A DNA stretch of 55,978 bases from contig WSYB01000037.1 in the NCBI GenBank assembly GCA_009773645.1, positions 1-55,978 on the forward strand, in the 5' to 3' direction. Shown here piece by piece: positions 32,002 through 42,701 of the stretch. Position numbers and translations under genes: made by a program. Under the pieces are notes generated by a model. The model was not told the origin of the DNA, ran no database searches, and saw only the letters and a list, made by a program, of their open reading frames with translations. The first letter of the stretch is position 1; every line of letters starts with the position of its first letter. The stretch comes from Geobacteraceae bacterium. Lineage in GTDB: Bacteria > Desulfobacterota > Desulfuromonadia > Geobacterales > Geobacteraceae.

Positions 32002-33399
32002 ATGGAAAGGATCCTAGTAGTTGAAGACGACAGCTTTTTCAGGGAAGTGTTTTCCGCCCTTCTGAAGGAAGAGGGATACGTGGTGGATGTGGCCGCTTCC
32101 GGCAAGGAAGCACTGAAGATGCTGAAAGGAGAGGAATATCATGTTGTGGTGACCGATCTGGTCCTCCAGGACATCAGCGGGCTTGACATCCTTTCCCGGG
32201 TCAAGCAGCTCGATCCCGCCATCGAAGTAATCATGGTGACCGGCCATGCCAACATGGAAACGGCCATTTACGCACTGAAAAACGGCGCCAGGGATTATCT
32301 GACCAAACCCGTCAACAATGATGAGTTCAAGCATACCGTGGCGCTCTGCATCGAGCAGCGGCGGCTTTTGGACGAAAACCAGGAATTGAAAGGGCTGGTG
32401 AATCTTTTCCAGGTGAGCCAGGCCATTGCCAACTGCCTGGAACTGGAACGGCTCACTACCCTGGTTGTCGATGCGCTCGCCAAAGAGGTCGGTGTCGGCA
32501 GGGGGCTCGGCTATTTCCTCGATGATGGAAATCTGGCATTGAAGGAGTTTAAGGGGATTGACGAAGTAGCGGGCAAGAAGGTGGGAGAAGCGGTAACGGC
32601 GCATGTCAACTGGCACGAGGAGCGGACCGACAGCTTTACCTTGCTCAGCAACGTTCTCCCTCCAGGCGACAGTTTCGGTCCCGGAACCGGTTGCGATGTG
32701 AAAGAAGCGCTGGTGCTCTTCATCCGCTCGAAGACTACGGTGCTGGGGGGCGTCATCCTGGTTAACGAGCCGGGAAAACCGTTCCCCGGCGCCGTAAATA
32801 ACAGGAACCTGACGTTCCTCCTGGATCAATCCGCTCTGGCCCTTGAAAACGCCTCCCGTTACACCACCGCGCGAAACCTTCTCAATATTGATGAACTGAC
32901 GGGGCTTTTCAACTACCGGTATCTGGAAGTGGCCATGGACCGCGAGATCAAGCGGGCTGAGCGCTACGGCTCCACCCTTTCCGTGATCTTTCTCGACCTC
33001 GACCAGTTCAAGAACGTGAATGATACCCACGGTCACCTGATCGGCAGCAAGGTCCTGAAGGAAGTGGGCATGCTGCTGAAAAAATCGGTACGGGAAGTTG
33101 ACACGGTGATCCGTTACGGAGGGGACGAGTACACCGTCATCCTGATCGAGACCGGGATGCCTGGAGCGGCCAGCGTGGCGGAGCGTATCCGCAGGTCCGT
33201 TGAAGCCCACACTTTCCTCTCCGGCGAAGGATTCAACATCAAACTGACCGCCAGCATCGGCTATGCCTGCTATCCCGACGACGCCAAGTCGAAGGCCGAG
33301 CTCCTGGAGCTTGCCGATCAGGCCATGTATCGCGGCAAGTACAGCGGGAAAAACGTGGTGTTTCACGCCGCGCAGAAAAAAGACGAACAAGGAGAATGA
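32002..33399 (+). CDS. REC-GAF-GGDEF diguanylate cyclase response regulator
   Basis: 465 residues. The receiver domain (1-125) carries VVEDD, phospho-acceptor Asp52 and LTKPV. A GAF-like middle region spans ~130-285 (FQVSQAIANCLELERLTTLV). The GGDEF domain (295-455) starts with DELTGLFNYRYLE and has an active-site GGDEY, an accepted variant, so it should make cyclic di-GMP. No clear RxxD inhibitory site is seen immediately before it. It lies between comEC and hisS on one strand; its partner kinase is not in the window. Confidence 0.9.
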   Translation: MERILVVEDDSFFREVFSALLKEEGYVVDVAASGKEALKMLKGEEYHVVVTDLVLQDISGLDILSRVKQLDPAIEVIMVTGHANMETAIYALKNGARDYLTKPVNNDEFKHTVALCIEQRRLLDENQELKGLVNLFQVSQAIANCLELERLTTLVVDALAKEVGVGRGLGYFLDDGNLALKEFKGIDEVAGKKVGEAVTAHVNWHEERTDSFTLLSNVLPPGDSFGPGTGCDVKEALVLFIRSKTTVLGGVILVNEPGKPFPGAVNNRNLTFLLDQSALALENASRYTTARNLLNIDELTGLFNYRYLEVAMDREIKRAERYGSTLSVIFLDLDQFKNVNDTHGHLIGSKVLKEVGMLLKKSVREVDTVIRYGGDEYTVILIETGMPGAASVAERIRRSVEAHTFLSGEGFNIKLTASIGYACYPDDAKSKAELLELADQAMYRGKYSGKNVVFHAAQKKDEQGE

Positions 33400-37733: not shown

Positions 37734-37833
37734 GAACCTGAAGATCGATGCCGTTGCCGCCGACCATGCCGCCCACCGGGCGGACACCGAAGCGCATGGG
37801 ACGGTGTACCGGGTGAAGGAGAGCGGGGAATGG
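37734..37833 (+). pseudogene. Decayed 3' fragment of the downstream coiled-coil gene
   Basis: The stretch aligns with 38058-38153, the last third of the gene at 37899: both encode AAHRADTEAHGTVYRVKESG at high identity. The fragment has no start of its own, and its stop codon is changed (GGGGAATGG instead of GGGGAGTAG). It is a leftover of a tandem duplication. Confidence 0.8.
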
Positions 37834-37898: not shown

Positions 37899-38153
37899 AT
37901 GGACGCTGAAGAGAAGAAAGAGATCGAGGAAATGTTCAAGCACCATGTCGGGGTGTTGGCCGAGTCCTTTCAGCACAAGCTGGATATTGTTGTTGAAGGT
38001 CATCAGATGCTCAGTGAAAAGATCGACCGGCTTGATGGCAGAATGGACAGGCTTGAGAATACAGTCGATAAAATTGCCACCGACCTTGCCGCCCACCGGG
38101 CGGACACCGAGGCACATGGGACGGTTTATAGGGTGAAGGAGAGCGGGGAGTAG
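37899..38153 (+). CDS. Small coiled-coil protein of unknown function
   Basis: 84 residues from ATG 37899 with GGGAGGTGGGG upstream. Heptad patterns (LSEKIDRLDGRMDRLENTVD) predict a coiled coil, and the end reads AAHRADTEAHGTVYRVKESG. There is no signal peptide or membrane helix. A truncated copy of its 3' part lies immediately upstream, so the locus has been duplicated. I know no function. Confidence 0.65.
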   Translation: MDAEEKKEIEEMFKHHVGVLAESFQHKLDIVVEGHQMLSEKIDRLDGRMDRLENTVDKIATDLAAHRADTEAHGTVYRVKESGE

Positions 38154-38368: not shown

Positions 38369-39385
38369 CTATGGCCTTATCTCAACAATCGCACCATTTG
38401 GCGCTACCTTTTCAATTTCCTCTATTTCTTCGTCTGTAACGGCAATACACCCTTTCGTCCAGTCAACCTCTGTGTGCAAATCACCAGCCCATGAGAATCC
38501 ATTCTTAATGCCGTGGATCATGATGTCTCCGCCCGGAGAAACACCAAGTTCCTTTGCGCGCTTTTTGTCTTTCTCATTTGGATAGGAAATATGAAGAGAC
38601 AGGTGATAACGGCTGTCCTTGTTTCTTGCATCGATAACGTAGGTTCCCTCCGGGGTTTTGTTATCGCCTTGCCTTTCTTTTGGCCCAATTGGGTTTCCCC
38701 CCAAGGCTATTTGGTAGGATTTGAGCACCTTGCCCTTTGAAATCAACGTCAATCGTCGGTCTTTCTTTTCTATCAGAATCTTGTCTGCCGGTCCCTTCGG
38801 GATTACAAAAACCTCTTCGGGCAGTTTAACAATCTCATTCTCCTTGCTCTTAACCTCTTGTTCAAGTGCCTCGATCTTTTTTTGCAGTGTAATGATTTCA
38901 TTCCCCCTGCTTTGAACCTCTTGTCGGAGCGCCTCAATCTGTGTTTGCTGCGCAGCAATCGTCTTATCTTTGACAATGACATTATTGATATTAAATATCA
39001 TCATCTCACTGTCCTTCCTGTAACCACTCCCAGGGTAATCATTTATGAGTTTCTGGAAACATTCCAGAGATTTCTGATAATCTTTTTGCTCATTCCCAGG
39101 ATACGCATAAATAATACCCATCTCAAAAAGAACCCTGTCTCCCGCCGTGGGATATTTTTCAATAATCTGTTGATATTTGCCCAGAGAGGCATTGTAGTTT
39201 CCCTGGCGGAAAAAATCATTCGCTTCTATAAAGGTTGACTTGGCCTGAAATCCCTCATTAAAGTGACTGCAGCCGCAGATGAGCATTGGCGCTATTATGA
39301 TGCAGACAAAGAACAAGTTCGGATGCTTGCCCATCCTGCTTTGCTTTTTACCCATATTCGTCTGGAAGCTACTCAACTCCCTCAT
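38369..39385 (-). CDS. Lipoprotein L,D-transpeptidase (YkuD) with TPR-like and coiled-coil parts
   Basis: 338 residues from ATG 39385 (AAAGGA upstream); longer frames to 39520 lack a site. A lipobox (APMLICGC) predicts a lipoprotein. Residues ~50-130 are TPR-like (FFRQGNYNASLGKYQQIIEK), then a coiled coil (ALRQEVQSRGNEIITLQKK). The C-terminal YkuD domain carries IMIHG and WTKGCIAV, with the catalytic Cys in KGCI. Such enzymes form 3-3 crosslinks or attach proteins to peptidoglycan. The last gene of the riboswitch-led operon. Confidence 0.85.
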   Translation of the reverse strand: MRELSSFQTNMGKKQSRMGKHPNLFFVCIIIAPMLICGCSHFNEGFQAKSTFIEANDFFRQGNYNASLGKYQQIIEKYPTAGDRVLFEMGIIYAYPGNEQKDYQKSLECFQKLINDYPGSGYRKDSEMMIFNINNVIVKDKTIAAQQTQIEALRQEVQSRGNEIITLQKKIEALEQEVKSKENEIVKLPEEVFVIPKGPADKILIEKKDRRLTLISKGKVLKSYQIALGGNPIGPKERQGDNKTPEGTYVIDARNKDSRYHLSLHISYPNEKDKKRAKELGVSPGGDIMIHGIKNGFSWAGDLHTEVDWTKGCIAVTDEEIEEIEKVAPNGAIVEIRP

Positions 39386-39580
39386 CTCCTCATCCTTTGA
39401 CGGAAGCATCAGGAACAGATTGGGCTGAGAGCCCCTGATGCCCTGTTTTTGACCGATTAAATGCTTGAAAGGTCCTGACAGACTTGAACGGTGAAATATA
39501 AGGAAGTGGCAGAGTATCAAACCCTGCCACTTCCTTTCCGGAGCACTAACGGCAAAGCTAACAGTTCCCCATAAAACGGC

Positions 39581-39943
39581 TTACTTCTTCATTGATCTGC
39601 GGAAAATGTCGTCAGCCTTCTTCGCCTTTTCATCTGCGATCATCGCCTTATCATCTGCGATCTTCGCCTTTTCATCCGCGATCTTCGCCCTTTCATCTGC
39701 GATCTTCGCCCTTTCGTCTGCCATCTTTAGAGCATTTTCTGCTCGCGCTGCGGCAGCCTCGGCCTTTAACGTGGCCGCATCAGATGCCGCCTTGGCAGCC
39801 TGCGCATCCTTCGCTGCCTGATCAGCTTTCGCATCAGTCATCATTTGCTGCGATTGAACTTTCTCAAGTTCACGTGTTGATGCACACCCCCCCATAGTAA
39901 TAGCAGAAACAAGCATCATTGAAATCACCAAAAGACTCTTCAT
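39581..39943 (-). CDS. Lpp-like alanine-zipper lipoprotein ending in lysine
   Basis: 120 residues. The signal ends in a lipobox (ITMGGCAS). The mature part is nearly all helical with Ala-rich heptads, including direct repeats of ADERAKI/ADEKAKI, and ends in RRSMKK. Braun lipoprotein (Lpp) of enterics has the same plan: lipid anchor, alanine zipper, and a C-terminal Lys that L,D-transpeptidases couple to peptidoglycan. It lies between two L,D-transpeptidase genes, which makes an outer-membrane tether the natural guess. The longer rod (Lpp is ~58 residues mature) may set a wider periplasm. The DNA has ~21-bp imperfect repeats at 39640-39725. Confidence 0.8.
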   Translation of the reverse strand: MKSLLVISMMLVSAITMGGCASTRELEKVQSQQMMTDAKADQAAKDAQAAKAASDAATLKAEAAAARAENALKMADERAKIADERAKIADEKAKIADDKAMIADEKAKKADDIFRRSMKK

Positions 39944-39967
39944 TGTTTATCACCTCCTTTCTCTCGC

Positions 39968-41275
39968 TTATTTCTTCCTGACAGGTTCAATCAAGCTGCC
40001 GTCTATTTCCAAATCAATTTTCAGGCGCTTGATGGTGTCTTTGGCCTCTTTGATATCGTTGAATGGGCCGGCGATGACTTGGTAGCCAGCGTTCATTGCT
40101 ATCACCCGTGCCGGGATTTGCGGGCCCTGGTGGTTGATAATGGCGGCAAGCCTCACCGCATCAGTCTCGTCACGCAGGTCCGCAGCCAAAACAGACCACG
40201 CATCTGCTTTCAGCTCCGGTATCTTGGGTCTGCCATTTAATTCGCCTGGGTGCTTGACCTCTATGGGTTCCGCAACCCCTTTGCCACTTCCTTGACTGAT
40301 TTCGCATATGGGGACAGGAATGCCGCGAGCCTCGGCCAATACTTTCTTAACGTTACTCCAGTCAAGCGTGCGCCCTGATTCCTTTTCAATCGTTCGTAAT
40401 TTTTTATATATCTTATCAAGCTCGGCAGCATCCAACTCTTCCATGGACCCATGAACTTCCATGTACACGACGCCATTGCTTTGACCGACGAGATATGGCT
40501 GGTTAACGATGCTTACAGTTGTTTTAACCGGGGTGTTCTCATAGAGTTTTTTCACGTCTTCCGGATAGAGTCTTATGCAGCCGTTGGTTGCCCTAAGACC
40601 TATGCTGGCCGGTTTATTAGTGCCATGGATCAAATAACTCTGCGCACTTAAATAGAGCGCGTATTCTCCTAAGGGATTTTCAGGTCCCGGCGGAACTTTA
40701 GCGGGCAGAATATCTCCTTTTTTTCGATGATCCTTAGCAATTGAGACAGGCACATGCCAGGTCGGCCGGCTTACCTTGCGCTCCACACGCATGAGGCCTC
40801 TGGGCGAGGGTCGCTCTTCGGTACCGACACCGACCGGGTAGGTCAACACGGTCAATGACTCACTATTTCCTATAAATTGAAAGAGCCTCATTGCGGCCAA
40901 GTTGATCACGATCCCTTTTCTCGGAGCGTCCGGCAGAATAAAATTCAGCGGCAAGATGATACGTTCTCCGGCCTCAGGCACCCATATATCTACCCCTGGA
41001 TTAGCTGCGCTGACTCCATTGAGTCCCAGGCTGAAGTGCCTTGCAATATCCGGCAGCGTATCCCCCTTTTCAAGACGGGTGAATCTCAACCGACCAATGA
41101 CGTCATCTCCTCTTGCAACCGAAAACTCATTTCGTTCGATCTCCTTTTCAGGATGGCTTGGGAAAAGCCATGCACTTTTCGTAACAGCACATCCATTGAG
41201 AGATAAGATGAACATACATAGAGCTATAAGACGAAGCCAATTGGGTAAGAGTGACAGGTCAACGATTCGGCGCAT
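39968..41275 (-). CDS. ErfK/YbiS-type L,D-transpeptidase with LysM and SPOR-like parts
   Basis: 435 residues. A signal/lipobox (IALCMFILSLNGCAV) is followed by a LysM-like segment (LEKGDTLPDIARHFSLGLNG), then the YkuD catalytic domain with SYLIHGTNKPASIGLRATNG and GCIRLYPEDV (the catalytic Cys follows N-G where most family members have S-x-G). The C-terminal ~80 residues resemble a SPOR domain (VLAADLRDETDAVRLAAIIN, GYQVIAGPFNDIKEAKDTIK). YbiS-type enzymes in enterics link Lpp to peptidoglycan. First gene of the operon, 130 bases after the riboswitch. Confidence 0.88.
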   Translation of the reverse strand: MRRIVDLSLLPNWLRLIALCMFILSLNGCAVTKSAWLFPSHPEKEIERNEFSVARGDDVIGRLRFTRLEKGDTLPDIARHFSLGLNGVSAANPGVDIWVPEAGERIILPLNFILPDAPRKGIVINLAAMRLFQFIGNSESLTVLTYPVGVGTEERPSPRGLMRVERKVSRPTWHVPVSIAKDHRKKGDILPAKVPPGPENPLGEYALYLSAQSYLIHGTNKPASIGLRATNGCIRLYPEDVKKLYENTPVKTTVSIVNQPYLVGQSNGVVYMEVHGSMEELDAAELDKIYKKLRTIEKESGRTLDWSNVKKVLAEARGIPVPICEISQGSGKGVAEPIEVKHPGELNGRPKIPELKADAWSVLAADLRDETDAVRLAAIINHQGPQIPARVIAMNAGYQVIAGPFNDIKEAKDTIKRLKIDLEIDGSLIEPVRKK

Positions 41276-41323
41276 GGGTTAAATAAGGTACCTTTCTCAA
41301 TAATGAAAATTAATACAAATACA

Positions 41324-41366
41324 AAGCCGGGACCGATGATAAGGTGACATTTCGGTACCCCGGCTG
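41324..41366 (-). terminator. Second hairpin downstream of the riboswitch
   Basis: On the minus strand AGCCGGGGTACCGAAATG pairs with CATCGGTCCCGGCT, followed by a broken T tract (TTTGTATTTG). It is a near copy of the first terminator and lies between that terminator and the gene. Confidence 0.65.
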
Positions 41367-41378
41367 TGTTTTGACAAC

Positions 41379-41423
41379 AAAAAAGCCGGGACCGAATATC
41401 GCGTGATATTTCGGCAACCCGGC
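41379..41423 (-). terminator. Riboswitch expression-platform terminator
   Basis: On the minus strand GCCGGGTTGCCGAAATATC, the 3' side of the aptamer, pairs with GATATTCGGTCCCGGC and is followed by six T. The aptamer and terminator therefore compete for the same strand. Confidence 0.85.
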
Positions 41424-41485
41424 TGTCTCAGTGAGACCCTGTAGGCTTTCCGCCCCATTCTTGCGAATGGTTGAGTATTATCGTC
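41405..41485 (-). promoter_or_regulatory. GEMM-I riboswitch, cGAMP/c-di-GMP type
   Basis: The minus strand reads ACTCAACCATTCGCAAGAAT then GGGGCGGAAAGCCTACAGGG, TCTCACTGAGACAGCCGGGT and TGCCGAAATATC. This matches the GEMM-I layout: P1b hairpin with a GNRA-like loop, the GCGGAAAGCC core, and the CAGCCGGGTTGCC 3' segment. The form with GGGGCGGAAAGCC is the one described in Geobacter (GEMM-Ib) as responding to 3',3'-cGAMP. The aptamer's 3' strand is shared with a terminator, so ligand binding should change read-through into the L,D-transpeptidase operon. The ligand is inferred from similarity. Confidence 0.9.
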
Positions 41486-41709
41486 TATCTCTTAAAAAAT
41501 TTTTTACATCCTTACATTTCCATGAGGATAAGTCAATATTTTTCTAAAGCCCAGTTGAGGGACCAACCGATTCGGGCAAAAGAGGGCAGGTCAGAATTCA
41601 GGGGACATCTATACTTATCTCACCCTGAATTAAATATGATGTCCACGGAATTCGGCGCTGGAAAAGGGATGGCGGTCAGTATCTGCCAGTACTGCCTCAC
41701 TTTCCATGG
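41486..41709. other. Gap without a gene
   Basis: AT-rich upstream of the riboswitch, where its promoter should lie. An AATTCAGGG...CCCTGAATT inverted pair at about 41594-41630 next to GGGACAT resembles palindromes associated with REP transposases, but no transposase is present. Confidence 0.4.
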
Positions 41710-42003: not shown

Positions 42004-42236
42004 AAAGTGTCTCCTTTTTTGCCGCCATCCCTTTCCGTTCTTATTTGTATCACTGCCCGGTCGGTTGTCAAGGAGTCTCTCAAAACCTGTTCTGGCGCCA
42101 TGGGAAGAAAACAGGGGGAAGTATGGGGGTCTTGAAATAGGAAATATGCGAGAAGGGAGGGGCAGGTGGGATGACTCCTGCCCGCAATCGGGTATACTTC
42201 TCTCGTTGTCTCTCAATACTCTCTCAGGAGGTCCCC

Positions 42237-42701
42237 ATGACGCTGGAAAGAACAAAGGCTCCCGATTTCACCCTCGACGGCAGTGACGGGAAGAAGCACT
42301 CCCTTGCCGACTGCGCGGGGAAGACGTGCGTCATCTATTTCTACCCGAAGGACAGCACCCCCGGCTGAACGAAGGAGGCCACCGGCTTCCGTGATCTGAA
42401 GCCTGAATTCGACGCCCTCGGGGTCTCACTCCTCGGGGTGAGCAAAGACAGCCTCAAAGCCCATGAGAAGTTCGGCCGGGAGCAGGGGATAAACTTCCCG
42501 CTCCTTTCCGACCCTGAGGCCTCCATGATGAAGGCCTATGGTGCCTTCGGCGAGAAGGTAATGTATGGCATGAAAACCACCGGGGCGATCCGCTCCACTG
42601 TGGTGATCGGTCCCGATGGCACCGTCGTGAAGCACTGGCCCAAGGTGGCCAAAGCTGAGACGCACCCGGCGGAGGTGCTGGAGTTTTTAAAGAAGCGGTA
42701 A
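42237..42701 (+). CDS. Selenocysteine-containing peroxiredoxin (PrxQ/BCP type)
   Basis: 154 residues when TGA 42366-42368 is read as selenocysteine (Sec44). The frame before the TGA (RTKAPDFTLDG, VIYFYPKDSTPG) and after it (TKEATGFRDL, GVSKDSLKAHEKFG, FPLLSDPEASMMKAYG) are in one phase and together make a normal-length BCP/PrxQ peroxiredoxin. The TGA stands exactly at the peroxidatic Cys of the motif YPxxxTPGC. The usual resolving Cys five residues later is Thr; Cys26 and Cys31 remain. A SECIS-like hairpin follows the TGA. AGGAGGT precedes ATG 42237. It reduces peroxides, using thioredoxin-like donors in related enzymes. Automated callers would wrongly split it. Confidence 0.92.
42366..42403 (+). 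promoter_or_regulatory. SECIS-like hairpin after the in-frame TGA
   Basis: GGCTTC (42384-42389) pairs with GAAGCC (42398-42403) around the loop CGTGATCT, which has the GU typical of bacterial SECIS loops. The loop is 22 bases after the TGA, within the usual window. A competing GGAGGCC/GGCTTCC stem is also possible. Confidence 0.7.

Follow-up and report, generated by a model that had tools for sequence, protein, structure and literature searches.

In Geobacter sulfurreducens, the genes GSU0181-0183 lie behind a GEMM-Ib riboswitch and fall 16-fold when the cyclic GMP-AMP (cGAMP) synthase GacA is missing (delta-gacA). The 2019 paper reporting this terms them "uncharacterized lipoprotein transpeptidases" and, in its passages on these genes, gives them no reading as a tether, a tether length or a detaching enzyme (PMC6456294). 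Relevant passages elsewhere list GSU0182 as "Murein lipoprotein" (PMC11934962, PMC7962754) and place it among the genes reduced in IHF mutants, on a short list shared with pgcA (GSU1761) and GSU1945 (PMC7962754). The other close system is that of Escherichia coli, where Lpp, an alanine-zipper lipoprotein of 58 mature residues ending in a basic residue and Lys, is paired with the L,D-transpeptidases (LDTs) LdtA, LdtB and LdtC. Here we analyse an operon in a 55,978-nucleotide stretch of a Geobacteraceae bacterium (assembly GCA_009773645.1, contig WSYB01000037.1; "the window" is this whole stretch, which forms contig C73 of a 4.74-Mb draft genome split into 78 contigs), in which a GEMM-I riboswitch precedes genes for two YkuD-domain enzymes, LDT1 and LDT2, and an Lpp-like lipoprotein.

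On the minus strand the order is GEMM-I aptamer, terminator, LDT1, lipoprotein, LDT2. By description the operon resembles GSU0181-0183 in its GEMM-Ib riboswitch and its lipoprotein and transpeptidase genes, and it resembles the E. coli system in having an alanine-zipper lipoprotein with the same type of C-terminus and an LdtA/B/C/E-type enzyme. Unlike in E. coli, the putative attacher and the tether share one riboswitch operon, LDT1 bears a SPOR domain, and the mature lipoprotein has 101 residues. We lean towards reading this locus as a cGAMP-induced outer-membrane tether module, and we hold with clearly more confidence that its attaching part would work as such. The first-pass annotation of this DNA saw here a new use of the signal; as the gacA dependence of GSU0181-0183 was already published in 2019 (PMC6456294), the regulation is not new. 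What is new here is the split into attacher and hydrolase, the stepwise tether lengths, a covarying hairpin and a GacA orthologue in the window. Among open-licence PMC papers, supplements aside, we found none joining a long Lpp, cGAMP regulation and a reading as tether and detacher. The features are as follows.

41410-41486, minus strand: GEMM-I aptamer, predicted cGAMP (GEMM-Ib) type (cmscan RF01051; alignment A2; A at model position 11)
41379-41424, minus strand: predicted intrinsic terminator (sequence reading; hairpin of -23.6 kcal/mol)
41316-41365, minus strand: apparent remnant of another tandem riboswitch copy that has lost its aptamer but retains the terminator hairpin (likeness to copy 2 of relatives)
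39968-41275, minus strand: LDT1, YkuD and SPOR domains with a lipoprotein-type signal (profile matches, blastp)
39581-39943, minus strand: long Lpp-like alanine-zipper lipoprotein (PF11839, NF040598)
39619-39727, minus strand: 21-bp tandem repeats coding lipoprotein heptads (Tandem Repeats Finder)
39500-39536, minus strand: covarying hairpin 3' of the lipoprotein gene (alignment A4)
38369-39352, minus strand: LDT2, with TPR, coiled coil and YkuD; start approximate, inferred from orthologues (profile, blastp and PDB matches)
32002-33399, plus strand: GacA orthologue and presumed cGAMP maker, REC and GGDEF domains (PDB match 6d9m; Pfam)

The riboswitch and its leader

The aptamer matched RF01051 at 41486-41410 (minus strand) with 45.0 bits against a gathering score of 35 (E 1.2e-5), and no other Rfam family reached its gathering score in the window. 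The genome holds at least 19 GEMM-I matches, with 150 of 387 first-look candidates scored. A chance match is ruled out, since an aptamer is kept before LDT1 at all 17 loci of close orthologues; the riboswitch that had been placed at the head of the operon from the sequence is thereby confirmed.

The specificity base of the window aptamer is A. We take this base, model position 11, to be the equivalent of G20 in Vc2, a position where A marks the cGAMP type. Of the 19 aptamers listed from the same genome, alignment A2 shows A in 13 and G in 6, while before the 17 close LDT1 orthologues 30 of 31 aptamers have A and one has G. A wider set comprised the best 80 of at least 587 confirmed stretches, so that its counts are not representative of all bacteria; five of its loci (L095, L106, L108, L109 and L114) come from the same genomes as the close-relative set. 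Strong aptamers, those reaching at least 86 bits against a riboswitch model built here, stand before LDT1 at 22 of these 80 loci, with A in 37 of 38 and G in 1 of 38. The lone G aptamer is the same one in both sets (L033 2905-2982, minus strand, equal to L114 4833-4910). It is the proximal copy of a tandem of mixed type whose distal copy has A, an arrangement that could sense two signals.

Cyclic di-GMP (c-di-GMP) was set aside as the main ligand of the window aptamer on account of the A; in its favour counts that the specificity position is called "rather a selectivity factor than a hard filter" in the relevant passage of PMC9262584. Cyclic-dinucleotide control, proposed at the outset for either ligand, is supported, with the specificity base pointing to the cGAMP type.

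Sequence reading shows that the terminator uses the 3' strand of the aptamer as its 5' arm, and the terminator hairpin is part of the minimum free energy fold of the 116-nt leader. Ligand binding should therefore block termination, which would make this riboswitch an ON switch. ON behaviour has been reported for other GEMM-Ib switches, and the cGAMP riboswitches of Geobacter (pgcA, omcAHG) share both the A and a terminator-type ON platform with the window. A promoter and terminator consensus scanner listed neither this terminator nor the hairpin behind the lipoprotein gene, and its terminator count was no higher than in shuffled sequence.

Geobacter GEMM-Ib riboswitches are often tandem, as they are ahead of LDT1 in 14 of 17 close-relative loci and in 16 of the 22 riboswitch loci of the wider set, whereas the window has one aptamer and what appears to be the relic of a second copy's terminator. 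The stretch at 41316-41365 resembles the 3' half of the relatives' second copy and forms a hairpin of -18.4 kcal/mol. Because it carries sequence of the copy-2 type behind a full copy 1, we judged that the single aptamer is not a product of assembly collapse. One might argue from this relic, a terminator without an aptamer, that the second riboswitch has decayed into a ligand-free terminator and that cGAMP regulates the window copy poorly or not at all. We regard this as unlikely, since the first aptamer and its terminator are intact and the T-tract of the relic is interrupted (TTTGTATTTG); regulation through the intact copy is the reading we retain. At another locus (L023 1387-1462) the aptamer almost abuts the gene leader and the terminator is gone, and expression there may be independent of cGAMP.

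The likely attaching enzyme and the long lipoprotein

LDT1 combines a YkuD domain (2.7e-22; PF03734, 80 bits) with a C-terminal SPOR domain (9.5e-8), behind a lipoprotein-type signal recognised by eye. When seven E. coli proteins were compared by blastp, LDT1 matched LdtA (1e-54), LdtB (4e-50), LdtC (8e-49) and LdtE (1e-44) but hardly DpaA (0.16). The alignment to LdtA is collinear over 326 columns, and the catalytic motif reads IHG...TNGCIRL, as in the Lpp-attaching LDTs; YkuD transpeptidases have the motif HG...GC[IV]R. With 180 bits against a cut-off of 517 for its best NCBIfam equivalog, LDT1 is a relative of these enzymes rather than a named equivalog, and it is likely an attacher of the LdtA/B/C/E type. 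In one of the genomes, G018, there is a second, partial LDT1-like match (C13, 68%).

The lipoprotein is recognised both by PF11839 Alanine_zipper (3.9e-7; 30.7 bits against a cut-off of 23.1) and by the NCBIfam Lpp/OprI model NF040598 (63.7 bits against 43). Its mature form ends in ...SMKK, and all 58 distinct mature lipoproteins compared end in F..SM.K, placing a Lys at every C-terminus. We infer from this a covalent link between lipoprotein and peptidoglycan. The alternative is an LDT1 that forms 3-3 cross-links or couples proteins other than this one, with the lipoprotein serving as a non-covalent spacer. LdtE makes 3-3 cross-links and not Lpp bonds, according to the pertinent part of PMC10653827, and LDT1 matches LdtE well, over 280 columns, with the NCBIfam LdtE model nearly tied with the best one (179 against 180 bits). 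Set against this are the blastp ranking of LdtA, LdtB and LdtC above LdtE, the Lys in 58 of 58 lipoproteins and the steady adjacency of LDT1 and lipoprotein genes, so that we consider this alternative quite improbable and keep to covalent attachment.

The 58 mature forms, with identical ones counted once and L107 and L126 (lipobox pattern missed) and L153 (36 bits) left out, have lengths of 69, 73, 76, 80, 87, 90, 94 or 101 residues. Divided by seven, these lengths leave a remainder of three in 53 forms, which are related sequences and not 53 independent events, and of six in the other 5, as if tether length changed by whole heptads or 11-residue steps. Six forms, that of the window among them, belong to the longest class of 101 residues, for which a fully helical molecule would span about 15 nm by computation, against about 8.6 nm for the 58 residues of E. 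coli Lpp. The lipoprotein gene holds a 21-bp array of 5.2 copies at 89%, and slippage in it therefore offers itself as a route of length change. Coiled-coil periodicity of the window lipoprotein at 3.5 residues is modest, being equalled in 116 of 10000 shuffles and slightly exceeded by its own value at 3.6. Geobacter Lpp is naturally at least 99 residues long according to passages of PMC8824477, where electron conduits are raised in that context.

LDT2 and the hairpin before its gene

LDT2, like LDT1, has a lipobox-like Cys seen by eye and contains TPR, a coiled coil and YkuD (2.3e-16). The first-pass annotation had counted two L,D-transpeptidases; this holds for the YkuD fold of both proteins but not for the likely activity of the second, which is DpaA-like. 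Among the same seven E. coli proteins its nearest was DpaA (YafK/LdtF; 8e-16), with LdtC at 0.012. The PDB matches were DpaA 8IKR (2.8e-10), followed by Pgp2 (1.8e-4), Bd1075 and Csd6, all of them hydrolases: DpaA is an amidase and the other three are LD-carboxypeptidases in the relevant passages of PMC10653827. DpaA is thus the closest characterised YkuD enzyme compared, with the 8IKR match ending ahead of the catalytic Cys. Window LDT2 keeps DpaA residues K83, Q86, R108, Y109 and C143; in a set of 61 LDT2 sequences the K is invariant, while the Q and the RY vary. As LDT1 is LdtA/B/C/E-like and LDT2 is like DpaA or the LD-carboxypeptidases, the operon looks like an attacher, a tether and a probable detacher.

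Several points count against a DpaA function. The cleft residues K130 and Y131 of DpaA are not kept, and in the NCBIfam DpaA model NF040599 (1.7e-12) LDT2 scores 47 bits against a cut-off of 365, so membership is not claimed. The weaker Pgp2 match spans the catalytic Cys that the 8IKR match stops short of, and there TKGCIAV of LDT2 is nearer to TRGCIAL of Pgp2 than to SIGCYAM of DpaA. LDT2 differs from E. coli DpaA in being a lipoprotein, in its TPR and coiled coil, in a longer catalytic loop and in a Pgp2-like GCIA motif. In a comparison based on a structure model of LDT2 (predicted local distance difference test 75.8, weak loops), the VIA rows were tied at Z of about 13-14, which speaks for neither side, and 8IKR was absent among the 50 entries listed. 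Because the Cys region, the motif and the cut-off weigh in this direction, we name LDT2 a probable detacher and not DpaA.

It is then quite possible, without being our first choice, that LDT2 is an L,D-carboxypeptidase of the Csd6/Pgp2/Bd1075 type trimming tetrapeptides, the operon then serving both lipoprotein attachment and wall remodelling. The three carboxypeptidases stand directly behind DpaA among the PDB matches, and the points just given, including the longer HG...C segment, suit them. DpaA nonetheless leads them by at least six orders of magnitude, Q86, R108 and Y109 of DpaA are kept, Pgp2 has IE where DpaA and LDT2 have RQ, and LDT2 is steadily paired with an Lpp gene. We know of no Lpp partner for Pgp2, Bd1075 or Csd6. 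A DpaA-like hydrolase acting as a detacher stays the reading of LDT2 that we prefer, and the detaching part of the module is weaker than the attaching part.

Between the lipoprotein gene and LDT2 lies a hairpin (39500-39536), new here, in which 11 of 15 pairs are changed on both sides and 95.3% of cells are paired over 34 sequences, a percentage that leans upward because the rows were picked by a hairpin scan. The alignment consists of the window and 33 of 46 loci, chosen for having the hairpin; in the remaining 13 (L088, L094, L098, L108, L118, L120, L121, L123, L125, L129, L131, L132 and L133) a different hairpin scored best, or the hairpin was a variant or absent. No shuffle out of 500 reached any of the five measures used, and the genome contains the core pattern a single time. 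In L107, L117, L122, L126 and L142, where LDT2 is upstream of LDT1, the hairpin is still 3' of the lipoprotein gene, to whose 3' end it hence belongs. It may act as a partial terminator or stabiliser, yielding more tether than LDT2.

Distribution, neighbouring genes and a possible role

The 17 close LDT1 orthologues have 64-79% identity, and each of their loci keeps the aptamer upstream and the order LDT1, lipoprotein, LDT2. In the wider set, 47 of 80 loci have the lipoprotein gene next to LDT1. Outside Pseudomonadota this is so in 47 of 49, the other two being cut by contig ends, while it was not found beside LDT1 in the 31 Pseudomonadota loci, mostly of methanotrophs. LDT2 is present in 46 of the 47 lipoprotein loci (3 partial at contig ends, 9 upstream of LDT1), and the 47th, L119, ends 744 bases after LDT1. 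The Lpp-like tether kit recognised in the first-pass annotation is thus borne out, its parts being kept together in several phyla. L134-L165 except L142, mostly from methanotrophs, carry LDT1 homologues with neither lipoprotein nor LDT2 found beside them, and L153 gives a weak 36-bit lipoprotein match.

All 22 riboswitch loci are titled Geobacterales/Desulfuromonadales or "Deltaproteobacteria". The loci of Nitrospirota, Desulfobacterales and Syntrophales in this set gave no riboswitch match, L115 having too little upstream sequence, and so the module appears wider than its switch. Another Rfam element in place of a strong riboswitch was ruled out in 12 loci, which gave 0 matches, leaving uncounted a weak R1 match of 47 bits in L103, one of the 12. 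In an LDT1 tree of 77 rows (L150-L165, 16 loci, and the five close-relative loci whose genomes recur in the wider set left out), made by a quick method and with many weak forks, the window clade of 12 riboswitch loci lies within a supported set of 19 that includes Nitrospirota loci without riboswitch. The fewest changes of riboswitch state are 3 without L115 and L103 and 4 with them. Given this grouping and these changes, the module has likely passed from one phylum to another, with the riboswitch gained or lost.

The reading frame at 32002-33399 (plus strand) has as its best PDB match 6d9m, GacA of G. metallireducens (6.5e-80; next 1.5e-45). Its S349, in GHLIGS, aligns to GHLVGS of 6d9m and gives it the Ser-for-Asp exchange (347/348) of Hypr enzymes; it is a GacA orthologue and the presumed maker of cGAMP. 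It lies about 8 kb from the riboswitch operon, and the genes 3' of it are presumably hisS and acnB. At none of the other LDT1 loci searched are hisS or acnB beside LDT1, and gacA gave one weak match (L151), within flanks of at most 5 kb that are enough for acnB and too short for gacA at the distance seen in the window. As the acnB neighbourhood does not recur, the closeness of gacA looks like chance, and a functional link from nearness was set aside.

The same genome encodes, on contig C47, a 292-residue LdtE/A/B-type enzyme facing a lipoprotein that ends in RK (37.9 bits with NF040598, short of its cut-off of 43, and 23.3 with PF11839, whose cut-off is 23.1). This second LDT/Lpp-like pair (L080 2181-3486) is convergent and without a riboswitch. 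In a simple motif search, own genome included, 17 of 26 such loci had a neighbouring lipoprotein and 9 did not; the best GEMM-I match at the 26 loci was only 13.2 bits (E 0.32, L225). A separate DpaA-like protein is encoded on contig C63. As a pair without detectable GEMM-I exists in the same genome, tethering would not depend on cGAMP alone, and the original proposal that the signal switches envelope tethering was overstated: the effect of cGAMP would be one more type of tether and not the switching of tethering as such.

From the predicted activities a chain of events may be drawn. GacA would make cGAMP, which would bind the aptamer and hold its 3' strand, so that no terminator forms and RNA polymerase reads on. 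LDT1 would join the C-terminal Lys of the lipoprotein to meso-diaminopimelic acid of the wall, and the coiled coil would bridge wall and outer membrane. LDT2, as a DpaA-like lipoprotein enzyme, could re-cut the bond between Lys and wall, and the hairpin would probably end or protect most transcripts after the lipoprotein gene, giving much tether and little LDT2.

Against a module of this kind weigh its patchiness, with LDT1 at 64% identity or more in 18 of the 38 genomes compared (relatives and own) and LDT2 at E 1e-60 in 25 of 48 family genomes, and the second pair itself. Moreover, GSU0181-0183 are equated with the window operon by gene number and operon size, annotation and riboswitch only. 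In a csrA mutant GSU0182 decreases under one of two conditions but increases under the second, as given in passages of PMC11934962, and according to PMC8824477 lengthening Lpp in E. coli has no simple widening effect on the periplasm.

One may speculate further that through cGAMP the cell gains an additional tether set, longer and reversible and made of attacher, ruler and detacher, by which the distance from wall to outer membrane is readjusted to suit electron conduits when the cell grows on metal oxides, and that ruler length evolves in heptad steps by slippage of the 21-bp repeats. We think this extended proposal doubtful. If the tether-module reading itself holds, the long Lpp of Geobacter and the cGAMP regulon for metal-oxide respiration would be joined in one testable mechanism, and a second messenger would alter envelope construction, beyond the choice of cytochromes. 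A likely attacher and a possible detacher would sit together in one operon, and the natural tethers, from 69 to 101 residues in coiled-coil steps, offer a natural experiment on periplasm width.

Two further observations concern the surroundings of the operon. A peroxiredoxin-like reading frame at 42171-42701 (plus strand), with an AhpC-TSA match in its second part, contains an in-frame TGA (42366-42368) that would read through as TPGUTKEA, at what we take to be the usual place of Cys; it is likely a selenoprotein. A stretch coding AAHRADTEAHGTVYRVKESGE is present twice within about 400 bases, at 37750-37830 and 38080-38153 of the window.

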